From assembly GCA_036984305.1 (NCBI GenBank), contig BQWY01000001.1, forward strand, positions 1,178,001 through 1,242,000: a stretch of DNA of 64,000 nucleotides, read 5' to 3'. The notes under the pieces are model-generated. The model was not told the origin of the DNA, searched no databases, and worked only from the letters and a program-made list of their open reading frames with translations. Both the position numbers and the translations under genes were made by a program. Below, piece by piece: positions 1-5,608 of the stretch (position 1 is the first letter of the stretch; every line of letters begins with the position of its first letter). Source of the DNA: Nitrospira sp. (GTDB lineage: Bacteria; Nitrospirota; Nitrospiria; Nitrospirales; Nitrospiraceae).

Positions 1-2609
1 TGTGTCTTCACGGTGAGGTGTCCGCCCCGCTCGGTCATGGCGTCCAGCGCGTTGATGAATAGGTTCAACAGCACCTGCTTGATTTGCTGGCGGTCGAGCG
101 TCACGTAGGGGAGCCCGGAAGCCAATTCCCGCGTCAGCCGCACGCCTTTCGACGTGGCTTTGATCTCGATGAAATACAAGCAAGAATTCACGACTTCGTT
201 CAAATCTTGCTCCGTCAGCTGCGGCTCCATGTATCGCGCATAGTCCAAAATTTCCTGCACGAGACGCTCGATGCGATTCACGTCCTCCGCAACGACTTGA
301 CTGAACTGCTCGACGAACTCCCGATCGTCTCGCCGGTCCGGGACCAACTGCACGAACGTCTTAATCGACGTCAGAGGATTCCGCACTTCATGGGCAAATC
401 CTCCCGCAATGGTTTCTAACGAGCGGAGGCGATCGGTGCGCCTCATCAGCGCTTGGGACCGTTTCAGATCCTCGTACAGGAGAGCATTGTCGAGCGCAAT
501 GGCGGCGTGTTGTCCGAGTGTCGTCAGGAGGCTCAGGTCGTCAATGGAAAAAATGGCTTGGTCGTGACGCGGGCCCAGGTTGAAGAATCCGACGAGGCGC
601 TCCTTGTTGATGAGCGGAATACAGACGTCCACGTCCAGCGGTTTCATGGCTTCGACGACCCCCGGGAAATGGGCGGCGGCTTTGTCTTCGAGCTCTTCTC
701 GGATCAACGGCGTGCGAAAATGATTCAGCGTGGCGGAGAGCGGATCCTGGAGTTTGATCGTGGGCGGCAGTGCCGGCAAGTCCGGTTCACGTTGAGCCGC
801 GGCGAGGGCGAATTCATGTTTTTCCCCGTCCAGCACGTACAGAGACGCGGTCGTGATGTTCATCGTGGTGGTCAGCGTGTGCACGATTTCTTTGGTGAGC
901 GAATGCAGGTCCAGGATGGCGACGAGAGACTTGGAGAACTGCACGATCGTATCGTACGCGTCGTAGCGGTCGCGCAAGAGGCGCTGTCCGACCAAGTGCT
1001 CGATCGTCTGCGGCAGGTTGGCCAGCGATCCGGAGAAGGCGATGAAAATTCCCAACAGGATACCGGCGAGCACGAAGTGCCAGCTGAGGGTGAAGACCCG
1101 AATGGTCACCACGATCGCCGTATACGCGACGAGCATGCTGAACATTTGTGTGTACAGCATGCGATGGCTGGACCAGCCTGGAACCGTGACCTCCACGAGT
1201 TGGTGGCGGATAATGGCGTAGGCAACGAGAGTGAGCCAGAGTCCCGCGATCAGCGTGCCGGTCGGGTAGAACTCGTACCCGTAGCTCTGCAGAAAGTCGA
1301 CCGAGGCGGACAATCCGACGCAAAAGGTCCAAAACGAGTATTTCAGCCGAGGGGTCTCATTGGTCCCGTACTGGCGATTGATCCGATAGGCCTTGAAGAG
1401 ATGCGCCAGCCCGATCGAGGTCGTGGTGAAGAAGTACACCAGGAACAGCGGGTGCAACAGGCCGGCTTTGCCGTAGTAGCCCCATGCAAAATGATACGGG
1501 CCGGTGATGAGCAGCGGAGTAGGAAGGATCAACAGGAAGGCGATGCTGACCAAGTACGGGATCCGGACGTGCCGAGTGCTGTCGGGGTGTCCGACGAGTC
1601 GCATGGCGAAGTGAAAGAAGGCCGCGGGGATGAAGACGATGCCGGCGTACACCGCCTTGCACCAGAACAACGCCTCCTGGGCAGTGGGTGCCGAATAGAT
1701 CATGAACGCACCGATCAGCCACAGACACACCGCTGCGCAATAGAGAGAGAACGTTCGATTGGTGGCTGAGCGAGGATTGCTGGTGATCACCAGCACGCTG
1801 CACACCGCCACCAGGACACCGGCGATCAACGGGGGCGCCGTGGCCACGGTCGCCCGTGTGCTCAGGAGCGTTCCGAACGCGGCGGTGACCGTAATCGCAC
1901 CGACAACGATCACGTAGGCCAGACTCTTGTTGAGCATGACGCTGATGTCCATGAGGCGATACCGGATGATCGCGTAGGACATGATGATCGGGTAGAGTGG
2001 CACCGTGAAGTTGAGCAGTGGGTAGAGGTCTACACCGAATACGGGGAGAAACGCCGTGCCGCCGCCCGAGAAGCCGAGCGCTGTCGCCAGGAAGAAGTAT
2101 TTCAATTGGTCCTTCTTCAGCCCGGTGGCGTGACGGTACGCACCGTACATTTCGTAGTGTCCGTAGAGAATGACGGAGAAGAAGAACAGGACGAAGTACG
2201 GGTAGAGGATGGACGGAGGCGAATCGTAGTAAAACGAGTCGAAGACGAACCGAAGGTCCTTGATAAACCAATCCGTGAACAGATTGGCGAGGAGAAAGCC
2301 GAGTCCACACGCATAGGTCAAGAGGATCAGCCGCGTACGACGTATATTCAAAAAGACAAAAATGAAATGCAGGAACAGGACGGGAATGAAAATGACGCCG
2401 ACGTGGCTGATTTTCCACCAGGTCAGTGCGATAGTCGGATCGAGCGTCGATGCGATCCGGTAGGCACCAAACCCCCAGACCGCCACGGCGAGCGCAAACA
2501 GCGCCCAAAGCCGGTTCGGACGCCGCTCCGGTGCCTTCGCATAGACCACAAGTGCGAGCACACTGCTTGTAATGCCGGTCAGCAGGCCTGAGAGGGCAAA
2601 AAGATTCAT
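1..2609 (-). CDS. Membrane-bound sensor histidine kinase (PrsK-like), C-terminus cut by window edge
   Basis: Sensor kinase of a two-component system, read from ATG at 2609 down to the window edge; about 869 residues are visible and the catalytic ATPase domain is lost beyond position 1. Order: two successive polytopic membrane modules (about residues 1-225 and 228-480), a GAF domain (about 545-705), then a HisKA dimerisation domain with the H-box FAHEVRNPL (phospho-accepting His740) and the N-box NLFINALDAM near the edge. The membrane modules each end alike (SYAIIRYRLMDISV and AYAIIRHQLVEVTV), which indicates an internal duplication. Domain order resembles PEP-CTERM-associated PrsK kinases, but no PEP-CTERM gene is visible here, so the signal is unknown. 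No response regulator lies upstream; one may lie beyond the left edge. Confidence 0.9.
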   Translation of the reverse strand, partial: MNLFALSGLLTGITSSVLALVVYAKAPERRPNRLWALFALAVAVWGFGAYRIASTLDPTIALTWWKISHVGVIFIPVLFLHFIFVFLNIRRTRLILLTYACGLGFLLANLFTDWFIKDLRFVFDSFYYDSPPSILYPYFVLFFFSVILYGHYEMYGAYRHATGLKKDQLKYFFLATALGFSGGGTAFLPVFGVDLYPLLNFTVPLYPIIMSYAIIRYRLMDISVMLNKSLAYVIVVGAITVTAAFGTLLSTRATVATAPPLIAGVLVAVCSVLVITSNPRSATNRTFSLYCAAVCLWLIGAFMIYSAPTAQEALFWCKAVYAGIVFIPAAFFHFAMRLVGHPDSTRHVRIPYLVSIAFLLILPTPLLITGPYHFAWGYYGKAGLLHPLFLVYFFTTTSIGLAHLFKAYRINRQYGTNETPRLKYSFWTFCVGLSASVDFLQSYGYEFYPTGTLIAGLWLTLVAYAIIRHQLVEVTVPGWSSHRMLYTQMFSMLVAYTAIVVTIRVFTLSWHFVLAGILLGIFIAFSGSLANLPQTIEHLVGQRLLRDRYDAYDTIVQFSKSLVAILDLHSLTKEIVHTLTTTMNITTASLYVLDGEKHEFALAAAQREPDLPALPPTIKLQDPLSATLNHFRTPLIREELEDKAAAHFPGVVEAMKPLDVDVCIPLINKERLVGFFNLGPRHDQAIFSIDDLSLLTTLGQHAAIALDNALLYEDLKRSQALMRRTDRLRSLETIAGGFAHEVRNPLTSIKTFVQLVPDRRDDREFVEQFSQVVAEDVNRIERLVQEILDYARYMEPQLTEQDLNEVVNSCLYFIEIKATSKGVRLTRELASGLPYVTLDRQQIKQVLLNLFINALDAMTERGGHLTVKT

Positions 2610-2820: not shown

Positions 2821-4635
2821 TTAGCGCCCCGGCGCGCGACTTTTCAATGGATTGAGTACGGACAATGGGGGAGTGGTCTCGGGAGACGGCTTCCGCCCGT
2901 ATTTCTTGTGTGCATTGGCAAAGGTGCCGTTTGCCACCCGTGCGCAAATACCGATCTCGCCGGCAAGGGTTGCGGCGGCGACGATTTCCGAAAATTTCTT
3001 GGCTTTCCCGGTGCCATGACACCCCAGCAGTTGGAGGCACTCCCGTTGTGTGGCTAGATTGGTTCCTCCGCCGACCGTCCCAACCAGCAGGCTAGGTAAC
3101 TTCAGACTGACGTAGAGCCCTCGATCCTCGGTCAGTTCAAAGTTCGTGACGCTGACGTAGGAGTCGACGATGCACGCGATGTCCTGTCCACAGGCCGTGA
3201 ACATGGCCGCGAGCATGTTCGCGGTATGGCCGTTGATGCCCACCATGCCCACATGGGCCGTGCAGAGACGCACGGCGTGATAGAAGTCGACGATTGCCTC
3301 GGGAGTGATGTGGAAGGCCCGCTTAATGAGCGGGGCCGGAATTGTGACTTCGGCAATGACGGTTTTCCCATATCCCGCGATGAAATTATGCGCCGTGACC
3401 TTCTTGATAGAGGAGAAATTCGGCTGCAGATAAAAGCGCTTCGGCTTCGACACTCTTACGATGAACTTACAGGCTTCCTCCGTCGCGAAGGTCACCATAT
3501 TGATGCCCATGGCATCGCCGGTGGAGTACACGAATTTGACCACGACGTTTTTGTCGAAGATGTGCGGCTCTAGCGCGACCAATTCTCCGTGGCGGGTAGC
3601 AGTTTCGGCGTATTGCTTGATCTGGACGAAATTTGACTGGACCCACTGCGAGAAGCGGTGAGCGGAGCGGACGGAGTCGAATACGAACAATGGAGAAATG
3701 TGCAAATGGTCGGTCAGCAATGCAGTCTGCGCGCCGCCGGCCAGCGACATGAGGAGCATGCTCTCGCTGCATGTGTAGACCAGGGCCCCTTCGGTGGTGG
3801 CCATCGGAACGTAGAAATTCCCGCGGGCGAATTGGCCGTTGATCCGAAGCGGCCCTGCGACCCCGAGTGGGATTTGCGCGGAGCCGATGAAATGCTCGAC
3901 GTTCCCACGCAGATTCTCGGGGCTTTCAGTGTAGACGCCGATATGATGCAGCGGGGCGTTGCATTTCTGGGACAGCCAGTCACGGCGGATCTTTGCCGCG
4001 GTAGAGGAATAGCTTGTGCGTTTCAGCTTGGGGAGTAGATCGCGTGCAGTCAGTTTATCTCCCTCTTCGTCCGCCAATGCGGTCTGATGGCTTTCAGAGT
4101 CGTCACGCAGCGGCTGTATGGTAATCGATGCCGCCTCCCCCGCCAGTGTGTCGTGAGCCACATACAAATGAAAAAACGACCGTTGCTGGGTTTCCTCGCT
4201 CAGATGAAGTTCTTGAATGGCGGAGGCGAGGATTTGACGCTCCCAGGCCCTCACGGCGATGAATCGAATTCCGACTGCGAAGCGGCGGCAGTCGTGATCG
4301 CTCATTGGCAGGCAATACGCCACCATCCCCGCGAGATTGAGGTGGCAGACATCTCCAAAGGTGCAGCGCAACTCCAGCGGGCTTCCGGGACGGAGTCCGG
4401 TTTCCATAATGACCCGGAGACCCCCGGAACTCAGGTTGTCGGTTCGGCCAGATAGGTTGGCTTCGCCGGTATGCACCAGAAGAGGAATGTGCACGACCTG
4501 ACGACTGGCATGACGAATTGGAGGAGAGGCAGCCGGCGCGGGAGTGACCGAGTGGCTGAGGTCGGTGCTCCCGTCTCCTTGTTGTTCCGGCACACCGTTC
4601 CGCGGATCGGAAGGCGGTCGGCCCCACTGCTGCAT
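2821..4635 (-). CDS. PilZ domain fused to class I-like HMG-CoA reductase
   Basis: A 604-residue protein. Residues about 35-145 form a PilZ domain with both c-di-GMP contact motifs, RHASR (41-45) and NLSSGG (67-72). Residues about 200-581 are HMG-CoA reductase-like: ENLRGN then IPLGVAGPL, MATTEG with the catalytic Glu (282), DAMGINM, the KK pair (411-412) holding the catalytic Lys, GQD (Asp485), GTVGGGT, and the C-terminal HKKYGR with the catalytic His (576). All four catalytic residues known for class I HMGR therefore appear present. Known role of that family: NADPH-dependent reduction of HMG-CoA to mevalonate. I chose ATG 4635 because GAGGAG lies 7 bases upstream; an upstream TTG at 4656 has no such site. 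Substrate and c-di-GMP control are inference. No other mevalonate gene is in the window. Confidence 0.88.
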   Translation of the reverse strand: MQQWGRPPSDPRNGVPEQQGDGSTDLSHSVTPAPAASPPIRHASRQVVHIPLLVHTGEANLSGRTDNLSSGGLRVIMETGLRPGSPLELRCTFGDVCHLNLAGMVAYCLPMSDHDCRRFAVGIRFIAVRAWERQILASAIQELHLSEETQQRSFFHLYVAHDTLAGEAASITIQPLRDDSESHQTALADEEGDKLTARDLLPKLKRTSYSSTAAKIRRDWLSQKCNAPLHHIGVYTESPENLRGNVEHFIGSAQIPLGVAGPLRINGQFARGNFYVPMATTEGALVYTCSESMLLMSLAGGAQTALLTDHLHISPLFVFDSVRSAHRFSQWVQSNFVQIKQYAETATRHGELVALEPHIFDKNVVVKFVYSTGDAMGINMVTFATEEACKFIVRVSKPKRFYLQPNFSSIKKVTAHNFIAGYGKTVIAEVTIPAPLIKRAFHITPEAIVDFYHAVRLCTAHVGMVGINGHTANMLAAMFTACGQDIACIVDSYVSVTNFELTEDRGLYVSLKLPSLLVGTVGGGTNLATQRECLQLLGCHGTGKAKKFSEIVAAATLAGEIGICARVANGTFANAHKKYGRKPSPETTPPLSVLNPLKSRAPGR

Positions 4636-4731
4636 CAGCTTACTCCTCGGGAGCAACGGAGAGCTGTGAGTTGCACATGGAGACGCGACGCATCCTACGA
4701 AAATGGCGTCCGGCTCCGTAAAAGACAGGGG

Positions 4732-4760
4732 ATTATCTGAAGAATCACCTAATTTGTCAA
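4732..4760 (-). promoter_or_regulatory. Near-consensus sigma70-type promoter for the PilZ-HMGR gene
   Basis: Minus strand: -35 TTGACA (4760-4755), 17-base spacer, -10 GATAAT (4737-4732). That is 6/6 and 5/6 matches. Predicted start of transcription near 4725 gives a leader of about 90 bases to ATG 4635. Confidence 0.7.
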
Positions 4761-4870: not shown

Positions 4871-5572
4871 TCAGTCCTGGCTGTGTTGGAGCAATGCGGA
4901 CAATTCTCGCGGCAGCAACAGCGTGATACAGGTAGGGGTATTCGGCCCTTCGTGGAAGGCGGCGAGCAGCAGTTGCGGTTGTGGCACCGCTTCAGGGGGA
5001 AAGGTCAAGAGAGCCGGGAAATCGATCACCGATCGCGTGATCGGGCCCGCCATGAGACGCAGTCGAAGCGCCATCAGGATATCCCGCAATCGCCCCTCGC
5101 GGGCGGTTTCGGGAATGCTGTCGGATGCGGTGACGACGGTATCCCAGAGCGGTCTCGTCATGCCCACTACGTAGGGTACTCCCATGCTCTTGGCGAAGGG
5201 AGTGATTTCGATCAATCCGCCAGCTTCGATCGCCTGCTCACGACTGACCTCAACGTCGTGCTCGTCTTGATCGGTGACCTGAGGTTCGGCGGCTCGGGAC
5301 GGATCGTGTGAGGCGTCCATCGTCGGGAGATCGGTCTTCGTCGGTGGAACGGCGTCTTCCGCATGCAGAGTCGTTTTCACCGTTGGTGACTTGTCCTCTG
5401 CACCGATCGCTAGCGGGGCGTCCTCAGTTGGGTCTACTCCGCGCGCCCGCAGGATGCCATCATAGACGGCTCTAGCCGATTGCGACCACCGCGGGCTAAA
5501 AGGCCGACCGGAAAAGGCAGCCTCGGCCGCCAGTCGTTCATCAAAGCTCAGTTCTCTTGAGTGCGTGCTCAT
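4871..5572 (-). CDS. DUF6573-like protein with low-complexity linker
   Basis: A 233-residue soluble protein of unknown function. The C-terminal half (about residues 115-230) matches my memory of DUF6573: SREQAIEAGGLIEIT followed by GVPYVVGMTRPLWDTVV; that family is mostly found on phages and plasmids. The first 45 residues form a separate small helical motif (LSFDERLAAEAAF, then FSPRWSQSARAVYDGI), joined by an acidic, Asp/Glu/Pro/Thr-rich linker. ATG 5572 is chosen although no ribosome binding site is visible; a TTG start at 5608 would overlap a TTGACA box, which argues against it. No signal peptide or membrane segment. It stands alone between HMGR and the MFS gene. Confidence 0.7.
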   Translation of the reverse strand: MSTHSRELSFDERLAAEAAFSGRPFSPRWSQSARAVYDGILRARGVDPTEDAPLAIGAEDKSPTVKTTLHAEDAVPPTKTDLPTMDASHDPSRAAEPQVTDQDEHDVEVSREQAIEAGGLIEITPFAKSMGVPYVVGMTRPLWDTVVTASDSIPETAREGRLRDILMALRLRLMAGPITRSVIDFPALLTFPPEAVPQPQLLLAAFHEGPNTPTCITLLLPRELSALLQHSQD

Positions 5573-5579
5573 ACTATTA

Positions 5580-5608
5580 ATGAATAGCGCGACTTGCCCT
5601 AATGTCAA
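5580..5608 (-). promoter_or_regulatory. Candidate promoter, perfect -35, leaderless arrangement
   Basis: Minus strand TTGACA at 5608-5603; a weak -10 (TATTCA or ATTCAT) follows after 16-17 bases. Transcription would start within a few bases of ATG 5572, consistent with the missing ribosome binding site. Confidence 0.4.

Follow-up and report, generated by a model that had tools for sequence, protein, structure and literature searches.

The alpha-hydroxyketone systems CqsA/CqsS, LqsA/LqsS, and JqsA/JqsT each combine a synthase that uses acyl thioesters with a polytopic receptor kinase; the synthases CqsA, LqsA, and JqsA are PLP enzymes. In Ralstonia, quorum sensing by PhcB/PhcS (PMC8578825) relies on a methyl 3-hydroxy fatty-acid signal; a methyltransferase makes it, and a histidine kinase senses it. 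HisKA_7TM (PF16927) is mentioned as a sensor domain in one report (PMC5847659), and the two papers found to name it mention, in the passages concerned, no enzyme partner, unlike the pair described here, whose kinase belongs to the same Pfam sensor family (PF16927) as these archaeal and bacterial proteins. The pair lies in a 64-kb stretch of a Nitrospira genome (64,000 nucleotides, hereafter the window) and consists of a PilZ-HMG-CoA reductase (HMGR)-like fusion gene and a 7TM kinase gene. By analogy, it would work like PhcB/PhcS or CqsA/CqsS while being a member of neither, as it has no component family in common with them beyond “histidine kinase” and “methyltransferase.” The product type of PhcB/PhcS would suit pairs of LuxD acyltransferase plus methyltransferase that we found in relatives; PhcB/PhcS nonetheless has other enzyme families, whereas the window unit has PilZ on the putative synthase and a HisKA_7TM sensor. 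Compared with CqsA/CqsS-type systems, the enzyme class itself is exchanged here and PilZ is carried. We consider it somewhat better than an even bet that the unit pairs an exchangeable signal synthase with a receptor kinase and that c-di-GMP could gate synthesis, with product, sensing, and gating all predicted. Its features are as follows:

1..2609, minus strand: histidine kinase of 972 aa with two HisKA_7TM domains, GAF, HisKA, and HATPase; extends 309 bases beyond the window start
1188..1826, minus strand: second 7TM domain of the kinase (domain match)
1944..2585, minus strand: 7TM-1, the first of the two 7TM sensor domains and the portion of the kinase that varies together with enzyme type among relatives
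2821..4656, minus strand: gene for the PilZ-HMGR-like fusion; 611 codons when read from TTG4656 and 604 when read from ATG4635, where an earlier note on this DNA placed the start
2893..3996, minus strand: HMGR-like domain, aa 221-588 (PF00368, HMG-CoA_red, 1.2e-110), with catalytic E289, K418, D492, and H583 retained
4123..4194, minus strand: conserved post-PilZ extension, QQRSFFHLYVAHDTLAGEAA region, aa 155-178 (alignment), common to fusions with other enzymes
4225..4515, minus strand: PilZ domain, aa 48-144 (PF07238, 1.2e-9), whose modeled fold matches PilZ/c-di-GMP structures
4420..4437, minus strand: [DN]xSxxG c-di-GMP motif, NLSSGG, aa 74-79 (motif match)
4501..4515, minus strand: RxxxR c-di-GMP motif, RHASR, aa 48-52 (motif match)
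4732..4760, minus strand: sigma-70-like promoter TTGACA-17-GATAAT, 5' of the fusion gene (11/12 consensus matches)

The PilZ domain with both c-di-GMP motifs and the near-consensus promoter that the earlier note had claimed are borne out (PF07238 at 1.2e-9, RHASR, and NLSSGG; TTGACA-17-GATAAT at 4760-4732 (-)), and the 11/12 matches of the promoter compare with a mean of 0.2 sites in shuffled sequence; sigma-54 sites occurred in the 64-kb window at chance level. Structure prediction, which that note had proposed, modeled the N-terminal part as a PilZ fold (AlphaFold, pLDDT 84), and the best matches of this model in a fold search of the PDB were the PilZ/c-di-GMP crystal structures 5y6g (YcgR), 4rt0 (Alg44), and 4xrn; at sequence level, a profile search for the PilZ module in the PDB gave no match, and the full-length model was confident for the HMGR part only. 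BcsA cellulose synthase and Alg44, among the closest PDB folds, likewise have PilZ joined to a biosynthetic protein; they serve polysaccharide synthesis, whereas the window unit would pair acyl or thioester chemistry with a 7TM kinase. Upstream of the fusion gene lies a 245-codon ORF (4871-5608 (-)) with a weak DUF6573 match (0.015) and no counterpart at the collinear site of a related genome, G012.

A search for PilZ and HMGR in one protein, also proposed in the earlier note, recovered the fusion from five further genomes, four of the same class (G369, G495, G496, and G499) and one of Elusimicrobia (L070), two phyla in total, which excludes a chance or misassembled fusion. HMGR was present in 6/396 genomes of the phylum sample and 6/270 of the class, G229 being among them, and the whole protein had no full-length match in 61 related genomes besides that of the window. 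Our search of open-access journal papers turned up neither a PilZ-HMGR fusion nor a PilZ-enzyme/7TM-kinase unit, in line with the earlier note, which knew of no described PilZ-reductase fusion. Two other HMGRs (L068:1361-4063 and L069) carry a C-terminal EcKL/APH-type kinase domain, lie beside a PEP-synthase-like gene, and have an N terminus that is PilZ-like yet Pfam negative.

The partner gene, absent from the earlier note, is the 7TM histidine kinase at 2609 and below, which is directly downstream of the fusion gene and encodes the sole HisKA_7TM protein of the source genome. All six PilZ-HMGR fusions (window, G369, G495, G496, G499, and Elusimicrobia L070) directly precede a 7TM kinase, as do two HMGRs that lack PilZ, those of G282 and G272. 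Among the 80 bacterial and archaeal HMGR loci fetched, a 7TM kinase was near HMGR in only two, L070 and L076 (the same sequence as L067, from G272), and near none of the remaining 78 close HMGRs. In an 87-row HMGR tree, the 7TM-paired HMGRs formed one clade (99/92), inside which the three PilZ-fused HMGRs grouped together (100/94). No response regulator adjoins the kinase in the source genome, a point against reading the pair as a signal unit.

The HMGR-like domain has the fold, catalytic Glu/Lys/Asp/His, and NADPH motif of class I HMG-CoA reductase. Catalytic Glu559, Lys691, Asp767, and His866 (human numbering) correspond to E289, K418, D492, and H583 of the fusion; the earlier note had claimed them as Glu282, Lys411, Asp485, and His576 in its own numbering, and all are invariant in 28 aligned HMGRs. 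These residues and the NADPH motif GDAMGxNM are fully conserved across the 7TM-paired clade. The fusion differs from class I enzymes in its N-terminal PilZ, in the mevalonate pathway not found in its genome, and in the residues that hold the substrate. Roles of Arg590, Ser684, Asp690, and Lys735 in contacting the HMG group are known from structures (PMC9500038); relative to solved HMGRs, the fusion has I320, Q411, I417, and V462 at these positions, and Arg568 is likewise lost (Glu instead). In all 79 other HMGRs compared, position 568 is Arg and position 690 is Asp/Glu, whereas Ser684 and Lys735 vary in many bacterial relatives also, so that the loss of Arg568 and Asp690 is what is special to the clade of the fusion; loss of Lys735 was dropped as a distinguishing mark because bacterial relatives lack it too. 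Against the NCBIfam equivalog TIGR00533, the fusion scores 333.8 bits, below the cut-off of 441.8. An alignment mixing PilZ modules with HMGRs was misaligned and was dropped. Because the catalytic and NADPH residues stay while the HMG contacts are changed, the domain probably still works as a reductase, with another acyl thioester as substrate, as judged from these residues. A noncatalytic domain that binds a ligand or CoA and feeds the kinase as a sensor module would also account for the diverged substrate contacts, yet is hard to reconcile with catalytic Glu, Lys, Asp, and His and an NADPH motif fully conserved across the clade, and we hold it to be very improbable.

The earlier note had read the protein as a c-di-GMP-controlled, mevalonate-forming HMGR feeding isoprenoid synthesis, perhaps of hopanoids or carotenoids, a reading with which the retained catalytic residues and GDAMGxNM agree. 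The search for further mevalonate genes that it proposed, carried out as family searches of the source genome (completeness 99.97%), found no HMG-CoA synthase, and the mevalonate kinase model met just two GHMP kinases, both below cut-off, of which one (L019) adjoins sugar-nucleotide genes and the other (L020) stands beside threonine synthase and is therefore taken as homoserine kinase. Dxr of the MEP pathway is present (496 bits). Moreover, the conserved neighbor of the fusion gene is a sensor kinase rather than isoprenoid genes, and an apparent mevalonate operon within the order (G229, Nitrospirales) employs a different HMGR, unfused and PilZ-less. Pathway content and substrate residues, with four HMG contacts replaced, led us to discard an isoprenoid role, and we give the mevalonate-forming reading hardly any credence; of the earlier interpretation, the PilZ-HMGR fusion with intact motifs stands and the isoprenoid supply falls. 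The fusion protein probably makes a signal rather than isoprenoids. The G229 locus itself (L229, G229:C19:133500-142500), unusual for Nitrospirales, holds a class-II-like HMGR in an apparently full mevalonate operon, with an HMG-CoA synthase-like gene, several GHMP kinases/decarboxylase, and an IDI-like gene close by.

With the whole protein as query, the 61 related genomes yielded eight N-terminal-only matches, seven of which were taken further. In these, the PilZ module carries a TENA/haem-oxygenase-like domain (G015, G053, and G014), KAS III (G046, G031, and G011), or a LuxD-type acyltransferase plus methyltransferase (G004), and a 7TM kinase follows the PilZ-enzyme gene in 7/7. A second, weaker set, from the Nitrospira-like genera fetched, joins PilZ to an acyl-ACP-reductase domain and also precedes a 7TM kinase. 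The fusions share PilZ as their N-terminal carrier, and the enzyme at the C terminus has been swapped several times. Among solved structures, the nearest relatives are UndA for the TENA type (4.7e-28), a long-chain acyl-ACP reductase for the acyl-ACP-reductase type (6e-20), and FabH/OleA/PqsD for the KAS III type, all of which act on fatty acyl groups. One 17-kb stretch (L053, G182:C24) holds two ORFs of the acyl-ACP-reductase type on opposite strands. In G198 (L189:2383-6001), PilZ-PilZ-LuxD acyltransferase-methyltransferase and the 7TM kinase form a single reading frame; its junction reads as a frameshift, probably an assembly error, and the ORF was not used as proof of linkage.

7TM domains of this kind occur in 90/236 Nitrospirales genomes, and 33 of 40 sampled 7TM kinases have an enzyme gene preceding or fused: 17 LuxD-methyltransferase, 10 HAD hydrolase, 3 UndA-like, 2 acyl-ACP reductase, and 1 KAS III (representatives checked by Pfam). 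A synthase-type gene beside a receptor-type kinase gene is an arrangement conserved across relatives. Since the non-HAD enzymes use or make fatty-acyl compounds, the predicted ligands are likely lipophilic (alcohol, aldehyde, alkene, ketone, or ester). The ten 7TM kinases preceded by a HAD hydrolase count against the signal-unit reading. At these loci (L197-L217), there is no acyl enzyme before the kinase, and the 7TMs nest beside LuxD-paired ones. The predominance of acyl-chain enzymes would also fit membrane homeostasis, in which a lipid or hydrocarbon of the membrane is produced or modified by the enzyme and the 7TM kinase of the same cell monitors either the amount of that compound or the condition of the membrane, with no cell-to-cell signal; a polytopic sensor and an orphan kinase without an adjacent regulator are consistent with this. 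Such a role does not call for a separate 7TM type per enzyme, unless the kinases sense the individual products directly, and we regard it as unlikely, though worth weighing.

The relation of enzyme to sensor favors the signal-unit reading. The window and G012, of the same family and another genus, are collinear over ~40 kb, and at the same site G012 has a PilZ-acyl-ACP-reductase gene instead of the PilZ-HMGR gene and the 245-codon ORF. Identity between the two kinases is 79% in the catalytic core versus 31% in 7TM-1, whereas 7TM-1 of G012 is 57-65% identical to the 7TMs of acyl-ACP-reductase pairs in other genera, with the change of affinity near aa 250 of the G012 kinase. The kinase-core tree joins the two as sisters (97/92), with enzyme types dispersed over it (7 changes versus 7.8 when shuffled). 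The 7TM-1 tree of the same rows has 4 enzyme-type changes, the minimum, and window and G012 as 7TM-1 sisters were rejected (p-AU 8e-62); with 53 rows, 5 changes were counted, again the minimum, versus a shuffled mean of 31.6. Taken over the whole family, enzyme type follows the 7TM-1 tree, not the kinase tree. Co-inheritance of linked genes accounts for part of this match; G012 is a domain-level exchange, and the case for exchange at that level rests mainly on it. The HMGR pair of the window does not display the match: its 7TM-1 groups as sister with UndA-paired 7TMs, apart from the other HMGR-paired ones, which tells against the signal-unit reading. Enzyme-linked change of the sensor independent of the kinase is a prediction of a synthase/receptor pair. 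That enzyme and 7TM-1 were exchanged together, irrespective of the kinase core, disagrees with a c-di-GMP effector operon, in which PilZ-enzyme and kinase would be separate outputs and inputs on one promoter and the product would not be sensed by the 7TM; with PilZ motifs intact in the HMGR, KAS III, and LuxD types and GGDEF proteins present, that arrangement has some appeal, and we judge it improbable.

As the source genome encodes GGDEF proteins, predicted c-di-GMP control of the fusion enzyme is plausible. The motif pair is intact in the HMGR, KAS III, and LuxD types of fusion but absent from the acyl-ACP-reductase fusions and from 2/3 UndA-type fusions, and the G369-type PilZ reads DxGxxG; such control is therefore not universal, a further point against the signal-unit reading in its gated form. 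The acyl-ACP-reductase fusions (L044-L054) keep PilZ-like domains despite loss of the paired motifs. This retention hints at a role besides c-di-GMP binding, and, given the motif losses in these and some UndA-type fusions, PilZ may serve for placement or docking as well.

For the signal unit, we envisage that the HMGR-like domain would act on some acyl thioester, not HMG-CoA, and reduce it to an alcohol or a similar lipophilic product, which, secreted or dissolved in the membrane, would be the ligand of 7TM-1; the kinase would relay the ligand signal to a response regulator, and c-di-GMP on PilZ would switch or place the synthase and so couple signal output to the biofilm or lifestyle state of the cell. 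More tentatively, and at somewhat less than even confidence, the loci may represent an undescribed class of communication unit, in which a fatty-acyl enzyme, carried by PilZ and freely exchangeable, produces a lipophilic signal specific to the strain under c-di-GMP gating and the matching 7TM moves along with it between kinases that are otherwise conserved. The signal-unit proposal, if right, also cautions against labeling such reductases mevalonate enzymes. If the proposal is true, Nitrospirota, the nitrite oxidizers and their relatives, would have signal systems that differ from AHL and DSF and whose synthase has c-di-GMP input as an integral part; enzyme type would predict ligand class (alcohol, aldehyde, alkene, ketone, or ester), and the ligands of many uncharacterized HisKA_7TM kinases would become directly testable.
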